Source: a virus
Virus record (IMG/VR): IMGVR_UViG_3300019458_000024
Span: 1 to 64,000 of that record
Length of the DNA stretch: 64,000 nucleotides
Strand: one strand, 5' to 3'
Shown: positions 33,647 to 39,837 of the stretch, one piece after another
Position numbering within the stretch: the first letter of the stretch is position 1
How the letters are laid out: each line of letters starts with the position of its first letter
Program-made: the position numbers and the translations under genes
Notes under the pieces: model-generated
Told to the model about the DNA's origin: nothing
Databases searched by the model: none
The model's input: only the letters and a program-made list of their open reading frames with translations

Positions 33647-34740
33647 GAATAGTTCTCTTCAGTGACTTGCATTGTCATCCATTTCAGCCTTACGCGACTA
33701 TATTAGCTAATGGTATGAATTCAAGGTTGGCTGATGCTATTAGTTGCATAGACCAGATAGTGGCGTACTGTGCTGATCCAAATAATCACGTAGATTTGGT
33801 TTTATTCGGCGGTGATTTGTTCCATGTTCGCAAGAACATTTCTGTAGCTGCGTTCAATGAAGTGTACGCTGCTCTGTCACAATTTGCTGCGAACGACATT
33901 CCACTGGTTTTGATACACGGTAATCATGATCAAGCCAGTAAGGACGGCAGTGTTAATAGTATAAAGACGTTTCACAGTATGGCTCACGTTATTGAACGTC
34001 CAGGATGGTTGGAATTACGAGGTCGGTGGGGAGACCCATATTCCATTCTCGGCGTTCCATACACGGAAAACATTGAACACCTAAAAGATATTGTAAACAT
34101 TCCTAACCCAGAGCCACTAGCTCCTAGCATATTGCTAGCTCATTTAGGTGTGCAAGGCGCTAAGGTAGGGGCTGATTTTGTGTATGCCACTCCGTACGAC
34201 GCCAAAGTAGAAGACCTGAACTGTGGAGCGTTTGACCGTGTTTATCTTGGTCATTATCACATGCACCAACAACTGGCGTCGAATGCTTGGTACATCGGAG
34301 CGCCACTGCAACACAACTGGGGTGACAAACATCAGTGGAGAGGTTTTTTGGTATATAATACTGACACCAAGAGTCATGAGAAAGTTGATTTGAAGTCACC
34401 AAAGTTTGTTGAAATTGATAATACCTCATTAAATATGGATACCTCACTGTATAGTGATGATTTCGTAAAAATTGTAGATTCTTCTACCGACAGTTGGTCA
34501 AAAACACGTATTGAGGAAGAAAGGATTAGGTTAGGCGCTAGATCACTAGAAATAGTGGTGAGGGAGAAAAACAGTGCACCTTTTGTCCCTAGATTAGATA
34601 TTTCAACTAACACATCCTTTAAAGACGCCATGGAAAAATATGTTAGGTCTGGTTTGTCTTCCGTTGAAGGGTTGGACGAGTCATATTTGTTGCAAATTGG
34701 AAATGAGATCTTGGAAGAAGTAGAAAATGGAGAAAAATGA
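33643..34740 (+). CDS. sbcD: SbcD/Mre11-like nuclease subunit
   Basis: 365 residues from TTG 33643, chosen because MRIVLFSDLHCH is the usual beginning (a GTG at 33634 is possible). Metallophosphoesterase motifs: SDLHCHP, FGGDLFH, IHGNHDQ, LLAHLG, YLGHYHMHQQ. This is the nuclease partner of SbcC, whose gene follows after two mobile-element-bearing genes (34737-37914); normally the two subunits are adjacent. It opens and trims DNA ends and hairpins. Confidence 0.85.
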   Translation: MRIVLFSDLHCHPFQPYATILANGMNSRLADAISCIDQIVAYCADPNNHVDLVLFGGDLFHVRKNISVAAFNEVYAALSQFAANDIPLVLIHGNHDQASKDGSVNSIKTFHSMAHVIERPGWLELRGRWGDPYSILGVPYTENIEHLKDIVNIPNPEPLAPSILLAHLGVQGAKVGADFVYATPYDAKVEDLNCGAFDRVYLGHYHMHQQLASNAWYIGAPLQHNWGDKHQWRGFLVYNTDTKSHEKVDLKSPKFVEIDNTSLNMDTSLYSDDFVKIVDSSTDSWSKTRIEEERIRLGARSLEIVVREKNSAPFVPRLDISTNTSFKDAMEKYVRSGLSSVEGLDESYLLQIGNEILEEVENGEK

Positions 34741-35726
34741 TGGGCATCCGATTAAATTTGGAGAATCAAAAATTTGGATATCTTACTGTACTGCGTGATG
34801 CAGGGAGAGCTTCTTCTGGCGCCGTCAAGTGGATGTGTCAATGTGATTGTGGCAAGAAAAAAGTCGTCGCCTCTGATTCTTTGAGAAGCGGAAGAGTATA
34901 CCATTGTGGCTGTCAGGGCCGACGTGCTTTGCATGATTTAGAGTTAATTGGAAAACAGTTTGGAAGACTGACGGTACGTTCGAAACAGGGTTACGAAAAG
35001 AAAAGCCAAGCGCTCTGGAACTGTGTTTGTAGTTGTGGTAAAGAGGTAGTCGTGCGTGGAGGAAATCTAGTTTCCAGTAACACGCGTAGTTGTGGTTGTG
35101 CTATAGCATTCAAACACGGAATGAGTCGTACGTCTGAGTATATGATCTGGTCTGGTATCAAAGCTCGCTGCTTTAATAAAAATAATTCGGCATATTCCTA
35201 TTATGGCGGTCGTGGAATTACGATGCACGATCCTTGGATAAATGATTTCATGAAATTTTTTGAATATGTTGGAAAACGTCCTGGGCCTGAGTATTCTATA
35301 GATAGAATTAACTCAGACGGTAATTATGCACCAGGAAATGTTAGATGGGTGACAGACGGTGAGCAAATGATTAATAGAAAAGCCAGGGGAACGACATTTA
35401 ATTACTATCAAAATAATACGAAAAAGACGGCTATTTATCCAAAAGAAGACCCGTTCGTTGCTATAGTTTATTGTGCGCTAGGTTTGTCCTCGGAAGCAGG
35501 TGAGATCGCGAGCAAGATAAAAAAATGCATGAGGGATAATGAGGGGATAATAGATCGAGAAGTCAAAAATTCGTTGATTGGTGAGATTGGTGATTGTTTT
35601 TGGTATTTAAGTGAATTGTCATCCAACTTGGGAGTGTCCTTAGACTACGCCGCTAAGAAAAATTTGAGCAAGTTGATGGGAAGAAAAGAGCGCGGTACAT
35701 TGAAAGGTAGCGGCGATAATCGTTAG
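34737..35726 (+). CDS. Homing endonuclease-like / MazG fusion
   Basis: 329 residues. Residues 1-105 hold two copies of a Cys-rich domain (KFGYLTVL...CQCDCG...HCGC and QFGRLTV...CVCSCG...SCGC); residues about 145-200 hold the endonuclease signature YYGGRGITM...YSIDRINSDGNYAPGNVRW shared with the gene at 31510. From residue 219 the protein becomes a MazG-type nucleotide pyrophosphohydrolase: TTFNYYQNNTKKTAIYP, GLSSEAGEIASKIKK, LIGEIGDCFWYLSEL. At the joint there is ACG (35391) directly after AGGGGA, with no ATG, so MazG can apparently be made only as part of the fusion. Confidence 0.75.
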   Translation: MMGIRLNLENQKFGYLTVLRDAGRASSGAVKWMCQCDCGKKKVVASDSLRSGRVYHCGCQGRRALHDLELIGKQFGRLTVRSKQGYEKKSQALWNCVCSCGKEVVVRGGNLVSSNTRSCGCAIAFKHGMSRTSEYMIWSGIKARCFNKNNSAYSYYGGRGITMHDPWINDFMKFFEYVGKRPGPEYSIDRINSDGNYAPGNVRWVTDGEQMINRKARGTTFNYYQNNTKKTAIYPKEDPFVAIVYCALGLSSEAGEIASKIKKCMRDNEGIIDREVKNSLIGEIGDCFWYLSELSSNLGVSLDYAAKKNLSKLMGRKERGTLKGSGDNR

Positions 35727-35751
35727 TTAGTCAATTTAAGGGGGTGGTACA

Positions 35752-37914
35752 GTGTCTTGGCAGGTTATTAAAAGTGACTGTTTATCAGCATTAAAAACGT
35801 TTAATGATGAGTCTGTTCATTCTATTATTACTGATCCTCCATACGGACTAGGCTCTGAGCCTACTCCTGAACAATTAATTGCGTTTATCAGCGGGGATGA
35901 CGTTCGACTCAATGATAAAGATTTCATGGGCAAGGATTGGTCAATTCCTTCTGTGGCTGTTTGGAAGGAATGCTTTCGCGTATTGAAGCCAGGGGGACAT
36001 TTGCTAGTATTCGGTGGAAGTCGCACGTTTGATCTCATGTCTCTTGGTATTCGTACGGCTGGATTTGAATACCGAGACACGGTTATGTGGATCTATGGTT
36101 GTTTGTCAGAAGACACAGAAATACTTGTAGATGGAGAATGGGTACCTTACTTCAAAGCAGTAAAAGGTAGGCACGCACTTTGTTATGATAGAGAATCTAA
36201 TAGTTATTCGTGGGAAAAAATCAACAATTTGTACGTGTATGAATACAACGATATCGCGTACAAAATTACGTCAGATAGTACAGACCAACTCGTCACCAAA
36301 AACCATCGCTGCTTGGTTGAACAAAACGGAAACTTTGAATTCAAAGAAGCGTGGGAAGCTGCACTGGACGCAGAAACACGCGTACCCGTTTTGGAAGGTT
36401 TGTCAGAATTGCTTAACTGTATTCCCCTGCCGGACAAACGAGCAGGCTTTGAGGAAAAGGGCGTGCTCGACACTATGTGCGGGCCGCTTAATTTCAAAAG
36501 CAAGGAAAGGGAAATACAGAACCCTAGTAAGAGTTTGTGTAATTTGCAAGAAATCCTACCGTGCGTACATCAGCAAGAAACGAGCCTCGAACAGAAAATT
36601 CTGCAGCAACAGGTGCAGAATAATCTGGAGGAAAAAGAATCCACACTTATGGGATCACCTTTACAAGGTGGGGCATCTGGGCAGAAGCGGATGGACAGCG
36701 GAATCAATGGCGTCTTACAAATTAAAAATGAGTGGCAGCAAAAACCCTGCATGGAAGGGAGGGATTACGAAGTTGAAAGCCAGAGGCAATTACAAGAATG
36801 TTGTTTTGGTTCGGTGTCCGCCGGAGTTTCACAAGATGGCTCAACAGAACGGGTATGTATTGGAGCACAGGTTAATAGTAGCAAAACAGATCAAAAGAGT
36901 ATTGACACAAAAAGAAGTTGTTCACCACATGGATCACAATCCGCAAAACAATGCAGCTACGAATTTAGCATTGTTCAAGACAAACAAAGATCACAAACTG
37001 TTCGAGCATCATGGAAGACCGCTGCCTCTCTGGCAAGGTTCGAAGAAATAGAATACTCAGGCATTGTTTGGTGCATATCAGTTCCTACGGGTGCTTTTGT
37101 AGCAAGACGAAATGGTAAGATATTTGTTACAGGTAATTCAGGATTCAATAAGGGAGGAGATATCTCGAAAAAGATTGATAAATCCCTCGGTGTAGAACCT
37201 ACAGTTATCGGAGAAAATCCTAATCACAGGCCGCTGTCCGGCGTTAGTTATGAAGGAATTTATGCTGGTGGCAATACTGGAAGCAAGTATGTTACTGCGG
37301 CTACTAGTGATGAGGCAAAGGTGTGGGAAGGTTGGGGCGTATCGATTAAGCCAGCTCACGAGCCGATAGTCATGGCAAGAAAACCATTCAAGGGAGCATT
37401 ATTTAAAAATGTGTTGAAGCACGGCACCGGTGCAGTGAACATTGATGCCTGTAGAATTCCAACAGAAGACAAACTGACAAGAAAACTGGGAAAAACGACA
37501 GAATCAGATGCCGGCTGGAAATCCGTCAATCGATCAGAAATTGCAGGAAAAGATGGTGGTAGAGTGCCTGCAAATGTAATCCTTGACGAAGAGGTTGGAG
37601 AGATTTTAGACTCTCAAGAATCTAAATCTAAGCCTGCCCGTTTTTTTTACTGCGCCAAAGCTTCAAAGTCTGAAAAGAATGAGGCTGGGCCTAATAATCA
37701 TCCAACAGTGAAGCCGGTAGATTTGATGCAGTGGCTGGTTAGACTAGTTACTCCTCCTGGTGGTGTGATATTGGATCCGTACGCAGGTAGTGGCACTACT
37801 GGGGTAGCTGCGGTTTCCGAAGGTTTTTCCTTTATAGGAATAGAAAAGTGCCAAGAGTATGTTGACATTGCAAGACAGCGAATTGAGCATATTGAATTCG
37901 AGAATCGCGAATAG
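35752..37914 (+). CDS. Beta-class DNA methyltransferase with intein
   Basis: 720-residue precursor from GTG 35752 with GGGGG upstream. Methyltransferase parts: ITDPPYGLG (catalytic motif IV) first and LDPYAGSGTTGVAA (SAM motif I) near the C-terminus, the order of beta-class N4/N6 enzymes. An intein at residues 117-462 splits the motif WIYG/SGFNKGGDISKKIDK; after splicing the enzyme has about 374 residues. The intein region also contains a long second reading frame with an HNH endonuclease (see 36185). The spliced enzyme probably protects phage DNA. Confidence 0.85.
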   Translation: MSWQVIKSDCLSALKTFNDESVHSIITDPPYGLGSEPTPEQLIAFISGDDVRLNDKDFMGKDWSIPSVAVWKECFRVLKPGGHLLVFGGSRTFDLMSLGIRTAGFEYRDTVMWIYGCLSEDTEILVDGEWVPYFKAVKGRHALCYDRESNSYSWEKINNLYVYEYNDIAYKITSDSTDQLVTKNHRCLVEQNGNFEFKEAWEAALDAETRVPVLEGLSELLNCIPLPDKRAGFEEKGVLDTMCGPLNFKSKEREIQNPSKSLCNLQEILPCVHQQETSLEQKILQQQVQNNLEEKESTLMGSPLQGGASGQKRMDSGINGVLQIKNEWQQKPCMEGRDYEVESQRQLQECCFGSVSAGVSQDGSTERVCIGAQVNSSKTDQKSIDTKRSCSPHGSQSAKQCSYEFSIVQDKQRSQTVRASWKTAASLARFEEIEYSGIVWCISVPTGAFVARRNGKIFVTGNSGFNKGGDISKKIDKSLGVEPTVIGENPNHRPLSGVSYEGIYAGGNTGSKYVTAATSDEAKVWEGWGVSIKPAHEPIVMARKPFKGALFKNVLKHGTGAVNIDACRIPTEDKLTRKLGKTTESDAGWKSVNRSEIAGKDGGRVPANVILDEEVGEILDSQESKSKPARFFYCAKASKSEKNEAGPNNHPTVKPVDLMQWLVRLVTPPGGVILDPYAGSGTTGVAAVSEGFSFIGIEKCQEYVDIARQRIEHIEFENRE
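36100..37137 (+). mobile_element. Intein in methyltransferase, endonuclease out of frame
   Basis: 346 residues from Cys (TGT at 36100, CLSEDTEILVDGEW) to Asn (AAT 37135-37137, IFVTGN) with Ser +1. The splicing N-domain runs to about residue 212 of the precursor and contains block B-like VTKNHRCLV; the C-domain starts near EYSGIVWCISVPTGAFV. The roughly 220 residues in between, where an intein endonuclease normally lies, are Gln/Ser-rich and resemble no domain in this frame, while the +1 frame of the same DNA encodes a clear zinc-finger/HNH endonuclease. Confidence 0.82.
36185..37051 (+). CDS. HNH endonuclease in +1 frame inside intein
   Basis: The open frame runs 36185-37051; the convincing part begins near 36395. 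It has two zinc fingers of matching spacing (C73-x2-C76...C94-x3-C98 and C118-x2-C121...C140-x3-C144), the motif GSKNPAWKGG, and an HNH core YVLEHRLIVAK...EVVHHMDHNPQNNAATN...KDH. The first 65 residues are only a shadow of the intein. There is no ATG or obvious ribosome-binding site next to the real start of homology, so expression would need an internal non-ATG start, a +1 frameshift, or the region has suffered two compensating frameshifts. Stop is TAG at 37049. Confidence 0.72.
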   Translation: MIENLIVIRGKKSTICTCMNTTISRTKLRQIVQTNSSPKTIAAWLNKTETLNSKKRGKLHWTQKHAYPFWKVCQNCLTVFPCRTNEQALRKRACSTLCAGRLISKARKGKYRTLVRVCVICKKSYRAYISKKRASNRKFCSNRCRIIWRKKNPHLWDHLYKVGHLGRSGWTAESMASYKLKMSGSKNPAWKGGITKLKARGNYKNVVLVRCPPEFHKMAQQNGYVLEHRLIVAKQIKRVLTQKEVVHHMDHNPQNNAATNLALFKTNKDHKLFEHHGRPLPLWQGSKK

Positions 37915-37917
37915 CAA

Positions 37918-39837
37918 ATGAGATTCCTTTCGGTAGAAATTCAAAATTTCATGTCGTATGGAGAGCCAGCACAGACTCTCCGTTTGGAAGACTTGGGTTT
38001 GGTATCTATTGTAGGTATTAACAAGGACGCGTTGGGTGCTTGTTCAAATGGTTCCGGAAAGTCTTCTATCATGGAAGCGATTGTATGGACATTGTATGGA
38101 CAGACAATGCGTGGTTACAAGGGGGACGAAGTAGTCAATAGAACAAACAAGGAGAACTGTTTTGTTAGACTGGCCTTGGAAGAAAATAACTCACTATATG
38201 AAATCAAGAGAACCAGAAAAGTTAATCAAAAACGTTCTAATGATTTGTGCTTGTTTATAGACGGTGTAGATGCTTCGCAAGGAACCGTAGCAGACACACA
38301 AGCAACTATTCAAACTATCATTGGTATGGATTTTTGTACATTTACGCAAAGTGTGATGATGTGGCACGGTACGCAACCCTTCAGTAAAATGACAGATAAA
38401 GAGCAAAAAGAGGTCCTGGAAGACATACTTCAAATAGACCAGCTCGCTAAGGCCAAAGATATTGTTAAGAATAAAATTTCTAAGGGACAAGAAAGTCTAA
38501 AAAATCTGACAAATAGAGTGTTGTTTTTAGACGCGACAATAGAAGATCTTTCCTTGTCTATTTCCAAACTGTCTTCACAAGACTCTCAATACGCTGAAAC
38601 AATCAAACAAAGACGTATTGCGCTGTTAACTAAAAAAGTAGATACGGAACTAAAAATAAATGAATTATATAAAAACACCGGGCTCGACAAACTAATTAAA
38701 ATTAGAGAAAATATAAGTAGTAAATTAGAGGTTATAGGCAATAGCCGAAGACATGTACAAACTGAAAAGCTTATTGTTGCCCGTTCGTTTGCTGAAAAAA
38801 AAGCTGCCTTATCAAAAAGAGAAGGCGTGGTCCAAGGAAGGATCATACAACTCCAAGAGGATATCAAAGCATTTAACACCCTCGCTGGGAAAGTATGTCC
38901 AACGTGCAAGCAAGAGTTCCACGTTGAGACAGCTTCATCCTGCATGGACATCTGGGCTAAAGAAGCCGAACGGCTACGATCACAAGAGATTGGCCCCATC
39001 GTCAACGCGCAAGAGGCTCTCCACGGAGACGAGCAATCTGAACTCAGTGCATTGGCGATTGAAGAAAGCCGTATCAATCAGGAAATTGGAACGGCCCAAG
39101 CCGAGCTGCAAAGCGCGGATGATAACGTCCGTAAAAGGAAGGCCACGCTTCAAGTTGTCTGTGAGTTGGAGCACCAGGCTCTTGGAATCCAAAAAGAACT
39201 CAACCAGCTTGACGAAGAGAAAAATCCGTATTCCGGCCTCATTGAGGAGAGTAGGAAAAAGCGAGACGACTGCGAAGGAGAGCGAAGATCCCTTACCTGC
39301 AAGATTGATTCTCTTTCTTTTGAATTAAGCCACCTAGAATACTGGAATCACGGTTTTGGTAATAGCGGATTAAAGTCTTACATACTCGATAATGTAGTTC
39401 CTTTTCTTACAGAAAAAGCGCAAGAATATGCTGATATAGTATCTGGAGGGGATATCAGGTTGGAGTTTTCTACGCAAACAAAGCTGAAATCTGGAGAGAT
39501 GAAGGACAGCTTTCAAGTCAAGGCTGTTAATCTAAAAGGCGCAGATGTTTATCACGGAAATTCTGATGGAGAACGCAGACGTATAGATATTGCCGTTGGT
39601 TGGGCTTTGGCAGACCTAGCAGCGACAAGAGCTAAAAAACCTATATATTTTAGAGGTTTAGATGAGCCTTTTGAACACTTAGATACTGTTGGCGAAGATT
39701 TGGTAATAAAATTACTTCACAAAGTTTTGCCAAGGTATGAAACTGTAATGTGTGTCACACATAGTGCACACCTAAGAGATCAATTTCCGAAGGAGGTTGT
39801 GGTAACATTTAAGAATGGATTTTCGAAAATTTCGTAG
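37918..39837 (+). CDS. sbcC: SbcC/Rad50-like SMC ATPase
   Basis: 639 residues. N-terminal FMSYGEP...SNGSGKSSIMEAIVWTLYG (Walker A, near residue 44), long coiled coil with a zinc hook KVCPTCKQEF, ABC signature-like SDGERRRIDIAVGWALADLA and Walker B YFRGLDEPFEHLD. It forms the SbcCD complex with the gene at 33643. A long open frame in another phase (38753-39328) runs through the coiled coil but has no recognisable motif. The stop codon lies inside the 5' strand of the RNA structure that follows. Confidence 0.88.
   Translation: MRFLSVEIQNFMSYGEPAQTLRLEDLGLVSIVGINKDALGACSNGSGKSSIMEAIVWTLYGQTMRGYKGDEVVNRTNKENCFVRLALEENNSLYEIKRTRKVNQKRSNDLCLFIDGVDASQGTVADTQATIQTIIGMDFCTFTQSVMMWHGTQPFSKMTDKEQKEVLEDILQIDQLAKAKDIVKNKISKGQESLKNLTNRVLFLDATIEDLSLSISKLSSQDSQYAETIKQRRIALLTKKVDTELKINELYKNTGLDKLIKIRENISSKLEVIGNSRRHVQTEKLIVARSFAEKKAALSKREGVVQGRIIQLQEDIKAFNTLAGKVCPTCKQEFHVETASSCMDIWAKEAERLRSQEIGPIVNAQEALHGDEQSELSALAIEESRINQEIGTAQAELQSADDNVRKRKATLQVVCELEHQALGIQKELNQLDEEKNPYSGLIEESRKKRDDCEGERRSLTCKIDSLSFELSHLEYWNHGFGNSGLKSYILDNVVPFLTEKAQEYADIVSGGDIRLEFSTQTKLKSGEMKDSFQVKAVNLKGADVYHGNSDGERRRIDIAVGWALADLAATRAKKPIYFRGLDEPFEHLDTVGEDLVIKLLHKVLPRYETVMCVTHSAHLRDQFPKEVVVTFKNGFSKIS

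Follow-up and report, generated by a model that had tools for sequence, protein, structure and literature searches.

The 64,000-nucleotide window analyzed here is part of a 162,637-base virus record and carries, on its plus strand, a phage DNA methyltransferase gene with an intein inside it (Table 1). The methyltransferase ORF is 720 amino acids (aa) long, and its frame (frame 1) runs through the insert without a stop, with the intein motifs in the order C1...VTKNH...VTGN, followed by Ser. The intein-free site YGSGFPKS is present in relatives (e.g., L015 and L016). Within the intein, the +1 frame is open from 36164 to 37051 and encodes a zinc-fingered HNH endonuclease. Both frames had been picked out in a preliminary description of this DNA. 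Its reading of 36100 to 37137 as a frame 1 intein with good splicing blocks, open throughout, was borne out, as was its account of two zinc fingers, a GSKNPAWKGG motif, and an HNH core in the +1 frame.

Table 1. Features of the methyltransferase gene, its intein, and the HNH gene that overlaps them
Feature	Position	Strand	Basis or remarks
DNA methyltransferase gene (N6_N4_Mtase), intein included in ORF	35752-37914	+	Pfam N6_N4_Mtase 2.2e-34; phrog_67 3.3e-64
N-extein	35752-36099	+	methyltransferase ORF
Intein, methyltransferase frame	36100-37137	+	346 aa; Cys1, terminal Asn, +1 Ser; insertion point YG/SGF
N-terminal splicing region (block A CLSEDTEIL, block B TDQLVTKNH)	36100-36414	+	alignment A1; pLDDT 91-96
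Extended -10-like element TGTTATGAT, putative internal HNH promoter	36181-36189	+	constraint at residues 15-31; enrichment in 50 relatives
HNH endonuclease gene, +1 frame	36239-37051	+	proposed start ATG 36239; stop TAG 37049-37051; another same-frame ATG at 36185
Zinc finger 1 (C..C..C..C), HNH frame	36401-36481	+	alignment A2, invariant cysteines
Gln/Ser/Glu-rich linker shadowing the HNH gene in the host frame; predicted disordered, stop-free	36415-37023	+	structure prediction; stop counts
Zinc finger 2, HNH frame	36536-36616	+	alignment A2, invariant cysteines
GSKNPAWKGG motif, HNH frame	36734-36763	+	translation; alignment
HNH catalytic core, HNH frame (YVLEHRL..EVVHHMDHNPQNN..NL.LF..N.DHK)	36851-37006	+	PHROG/Pfam matches; alignment
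C-terminal splicing region (..VWCISVPTGAFVARRNGKIFVTGN)	37024-37137	+	C-block comparison across relatives
C-extein	37138-37911	+	methyltransferase ORF

Directly upstream of the methyltransferase, a single ORF (34737 to 35726) has zinc-ribbon-like repeats and an HNH/AP2-like stretch (DRINSDGNYAPGNVRWVT) in frame before a MazG domain, a possible endonuclease insertion in MazG. An off-frame ORF of 191 aa (38753 to 39328) lies within an SbcC-like gene. The class II ribonucleotide reductase of the same phage (19492 to 24243) contains two ordinary inteins with in-frame HNH (Pfam HNH_3 twice, and Intein_splicing), and a second HNH-like stretch is found in the phage genome at G000:C1:143539-143733.

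Profile searches of both frames, which the preliminary description had proposed, placed HNH families in the +1 frame and N6_N4_Mtase in frame 1, with Pfam intein profiles scoring below their cut-off. Matches of the +1 product reached 1e-15 with PHROG HNH families and 5.5e-5 with Pfam HNH_3, the latter slightly under the family cut-off, and HNH_3 was matched in 32/35 relatives. Both zinc fingers are of the C2-C2 type, and the catalytic residues and zinc cysteines are invariant or nearly so among relatives. One alignment row, belonging to an annotated phage record, was excluded from the structure predictions. The structural model of the product had a pLDDT of 81 overall, with the zinc fingers and core mostly at 80 to 98. 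Its best PDB match in Foldseek was I-HmuI, at a nonsignificant E of 1.0, and a sequence search of solved structures returned no HNH relative. The preliminary description had placed the HNH features at 36401 to 36994, but as an extent of the gene this range was too short: coding constraint begins at ~36239, and the ORF ends at 37051.

A search with the HNH frame only, in which an intein was not required, returned 49 viral loci, and profile searches with the N block and the HNH enlarged the set to 190. After deduplication at 97%, 66 distinct loci (including L087, a remnant) combined a single open ORF containing both splicing blocks, N and C, with an HNH in the +1 frame. The layout of a standard intein, with the endonuclease in frame between blocks B and F, was not seen, as the HNH was +1 in all 66 loci and an in-frame HNH was found at this intein site in none. 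Sampling by the C block only does not depend on the type of endonuclease; without deduplication, it yielded 61 inteins with HNH in +1, 17 with an in-frame LAGLIDADG, 1 mini-intein, and 1 that was cut off. Here, too, HNH was never found in the splicing frame. The preliminary description had named homologous inteins with a splicing-frame HNH as the counterevidence to look for; they were searched for, and none was found. One seeming in-frame case (L119) lies at a contig end, contains N and frame breaks, and was rejected as an artefact; L112 is a decayed locus. At L087 (2221 to 2817), the HNH core is deleted while the zinc fingers and the open splicing frame are retained, a case of endonuclease loss in progress. 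L098 (4001 to 4432) has a mini-intein without endonuclease at the same site, with an in-frame TAA seven codons from the start, for which decay, error, and recoding are possible readings.

We compared the number of host-frame stops with that expected from synonymous shuffling of the HNH codons. For the window alone, 10.3 stops are predicted and 0 are present; a stop-free host frame arose in 0/20,000 shuffles, and the third frame of the window has 15 stops. Observed over expected stops were 0/503 in 50 two-finger inteins and 0/134 in 15 other inteins. For HNH relatives not enclosed by an intact host ORF, which served as controls, the ratio was 165/187; the openness of the host frame is thus not a by-product of HNH coding, and the explanation that HNH genes inherently leave their alternative frame open was dropped. 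Within the two-finger loci, T at the HNH third position before AA, AG, or GA occurred in 0/2998 cases, compared to 26% elsewhere. The absence of host-frame stops where ~500 are expected indicates long-term selection on both frames.

We compared substitutions by codon position in both frames, as the preliminary description had suggested. Within the HNH region, changes were concentrated at the third positions of HNH codons; within the splicing blocks, they were concentrated at those of host codons. Among the 50 two-finger loci, HNH third positions, which are host-frame first positions, took 46 to 58% of the HNH-region changes up to 40% divergence; the HNH frame is therefore the constrained protein there. 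Host third positions took up to 78% of changes in the C-terminal splicing block, and both substitution positions and synonymous divergence indicate that the two splicing blocks evolve as host-frame protein. On this computational evidence, both frames are under selection. One of two readings offered by the preliminary description was an overprinted, separately expressed endonuclease. Conservation across 66 loci and selection on both frames support it, with expression as its predicted part.

The extent of dual coding was mapped from host-frame divergence at 4-fold synonymous sites. This divergence was 0.63 to 0.72 in the extein and 0.70 at intein residues 1 to 9, dropped to 0.35 at residues 15 to 31, and was back to 0.68 at residues 32 to 40. 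It was 0.20 to 0.41 at residues 50 to 94, 0.05 at residues 95 to 100, and 0.59 to 0.69 in the C block beyond the HNH stop. By this profile, which is similar whether or not a locus has an ATG at nucleotide (nt) 139, the HNH gene extends from about residue 47 as far as the HNH stop codon.

At this conserved position, ~139 nt into the intein, an ATG is present in 28/50 two-finger loci (synonymous null, 20.8 ± 2.8) and absent from the other 22. The Shine-Dalgarno score across the 50 relatives was 2.32, versus a synonymous null of 1.26 ± 0.34, with strong sequences in some loci, for example, L074 (GAGGAGG) and L008 and L073 (AGGAG). An ATG at 85 to 100 is disfavored as a general start by the synonymous freedom of residues 32 to 46. 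The constrained residues 15 to 31 resemble a sigma-70-like promoter, TTGACA-N17-TGnTATAAT, and are a perfect match in L071 and L104. Matches to the -10 and -35 elements were above the synonymous null with z values of 5.3 and 5.0, which come from related loci and are thus not independent-sample probabilities. The window itself has a good extended -10 and a poor -35, and a consensus promoter scan of the window alone reported nothing on the plus strand, the extended -10 element included. As a hypothesis, a sigma-70-like promoter inside the N-terminal splicing block probably drives the HNH gene.

It is possible, albeit unlikely, that the HNH is instead reached by programmed +1 frameshifting of ribosomes translating the methyltransferase/intein frame, in which case the product would be an extein-inteinN-HNH fusion ending at 37051. 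The offset is invariably +1, dual coding starts within the N-terminal splicing region, and the ATG of the window (36239) has no Shine-Dalgarno sequence, all of which would suit such a route. However, in many loci the +1 frame is closed by stops until nt 124 to 136, immediately 5' of ATG 139, and the ATG and Shine-Dalgarno scores at this start are above the null, while frameshifting leaves the constrained residues 15 to 31 beside the free residues 32 to 46 unexplained. Internal initiation fits the data better as the putative route of HNH expression.

Pairwise distances in the extein correlated weakly with those in the splicing blocks (0.13) and in the HNH (0.24), and the correlation between splicing block and HNH was stronger (0.49), suggesting that the parts of the element mostly travel together from one methyltransferase to another. 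This decoupling of element and extein distances is as expected of a mobile element. We also found 31 loci (including L010, L013 to L017, L019, L020, and L022) with "direct" out-of-frame HNH insertions in phage methyltransferases. These share the HNH family, the +1 offset, and the stop-free host frame of the intein loci (always +1, host frame always open, with 0 stops against 212 expected), but they lack intein blocks and are inserted downstream of the GFPKS motif. In the HNH tree, intein-borne and direct genes are largely separate, with some exchange; for example, L165 (intein) groups with L181 (direct). In two control loci, an HNH of the same family separates two halves of the methyltransferase: it forms an ORF of its own between the half-genes in L178 (2155 to 3664) and is antisense in L166 (2865 to 5003).

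The splicing frame has the hallmarks of an intein in the window and in the 66 loci: an ORF continuous with the host, a position-1 nucleophile, a block B TxxH, a C-terminal Asn, and a +1 Cys/Ser/Thr. Cys1, the block B His, the terminal Asn, and the +1 Ser are preserved throughout the alignments. AlphaFold gave the host-frame protein a confident predicted Hint fold, with residues 1 to 105 and 305 to 346 mostly at pLDDT >90. The model matches solved inteins and Hedgehog in structure comparison, and a profile search matched the host-frame intein to the intein AceL NrdHF (5.6e-7). Residues 120 to 290 are predicted to be disordered (pLDDT ~36 to 54), in agreement with the preliminary description, which saw no domain in the middle of frame 1. 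A single-sequence search with the host-frame intein of the window found zero viral relatives, where splicing-block profiles succeeded, because the linker is not conserved as protein. There was no Rfam match to a group I or II intron up to E = 1 within 34000 to 39000, and this identity was therefore dropped.

Alternatively, the insert might not splice at all, being a tolerated loop kept in the methyltransferase with intein-like blocks as relics. The weak Pfam intein scores could be taken this way, as could the sister HNH insertions, which lack intein blocks, occur in the same methyltransferase family, and are also open in the host frame. Block G could be read likewise, since it ends in TGN instead of HN; the penultimate His is replaced by Gly in these inteins, LAGLIDADG alleles included. 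A penultimate His in block G is a common feature of inteins but not an obligatory one. TGN-ending alleles with in-frame LAGLIDADG are treated as inteins in earlier work (PMC9957025). Given also the four retained residues, two blocks that evolve as host-frame protein, and the confident Hint model, we consider the loss of splicing very unlikely, and we infer that the insert is an intein able to restore the host methyltransferase by protein splicing.

The other reading in the preliminary description, that two compensating frameshifts (by mutation or sequencing error) displaced an in-frame HNH and left the nuclease dead with splicing kept, would give an identical pattern in one sequence alone and would accord with ordinary HNH inteins being in frame, including the two in the ribonucleotide reductase of this phage, but it is refuted by the same +1 layout in 66 distinct loci without an in-frame homologue, by conserved catalytic and zinc residues in an HNH frame under purifying selection, and by zero host-frame stops against ~500 expected. 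Sequencing error or paired indels were dropped on the strength of the 66 conserved loci.

The nearest known report to the present element is that of the ShiLan domain, a hidden out-of-frame HNH in the phage DNA methylase gp65 of Mycobacterium phage ShiLan, which its authors were unable to place among inteins or introns; they suggested leaderless initiation and proposed that the domain remains in the methylase as a tolerated loop (Arsenault et al. 2025, PMC11855218). Both are zinc-fingered HNHs out of frame inside an open phage methylase, with a patchy, homing-like distribution. However, the ShiLan domain lacks intein blocks, occupies a different methylase site, and has a third-frame HNH with a GTG start 18 bp in, whereas the window HNH uses the +1 frame and lies within an intein, at the site YG/SGF, and its relatives provide evidence suggestive of an internal promoter and ribosome-binding site. 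A methylase intein with in-frame LAGLIDADG is carried by Mycobacterium phages ShiLan, Bobi, and Lilac (PMC9957025). These inteins share the methyltransferase site and splicing-block family of the window intein, with C blocks 58 to 79% identical and flanks YG and SGF, but their LAGLIDADG is in frame and the HNH of the window is not.

Fractured genes, reportedly described by Dassa et al. in 2009 (cited in PMC3229294), are said to be split inteins whose halves flank a free-standing endonuclease ORF. There, and as predicted here, the endonuclease is translated apart from the intein whose spread it aids, but those inteins are split over two genes, whereas here one continuous intein-methyltransferase ORF overlaps the endonuclease. 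The T4 intron endonucleases I-TevI/II/III are encoded by ORFs within a splicing element and have their own internal promoter (PMC2988022). The present gene resembles them in both respects, its promoter being putative, but theirs are group I introns with RNA splicing, in which an open host frame across the ORF is unnecessary. We found no report of an intein with an out-of-frame endonuclease in the full-text literature searched, whose coverage excluded subscription papers and preprints, so that absence is unproven; as far as we found, a hidden HNH plus a real intein is an apparently undescribed combination. To our knowledge, the endonuclease of known endonuclease-containing inteins is within the same polypeptide.

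Taken together, these observations suggest that the phage DNA methyltransferase gene hosts a mobile element of composite makeup. When it is read in the methyltransferase frame, a disordered linker would join the N and C splicing blocks, and protein splicing would restore the host enzyme. The DNA of the linker would double as a separate +1-frame gene for a two-zinc-finger HNH homing endonuclease. Judging from the comparative sequence data, this is very probably an independent homing-endonuclease gene that is overprinted on the linker of the intein and has its own start and probably a promoter of its own. The HNH would be expressed separately, in most relatives via internal translation initiation at or near the conserved ATG, from a transcript that probably begins at the putative promoter within the N-terminal splicing block. 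Methyltransferase genes without the intein would be cut or nicked by this enzyme and would acquire a copy of the whole element during repair.

Such an element likely represents a third architecture of intein mobility, in which an intact splicing intein is combined with an independent overlapping endonuclease gene whose promoter, ribosome-binding site, and start lie within splicing-domain codons. If so, the host-frame linker would be retained solely as a stop-free, disordered shadow, and the splicing and homing enzymes would be made separately and could be regulated, swapped, or lost independently. This bears on the old question of how two independent parasites became one. At one intein site, phages carry either an in-frame LAGLIDADG or an overprinted HNH, never an in-frame HNH, and these alleles are a natural experiment on an endonuclease gene invading an intein without fusion. 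They also provide an example of long overlapping genes in which both frames are selected. Because nothing looks unusual in the host frame, annotation misses overlapping HNH genes, and our findings suggest that hidden HNH genes in phage methyltransferases form a class larger than the reported mycobacteriophage cases.
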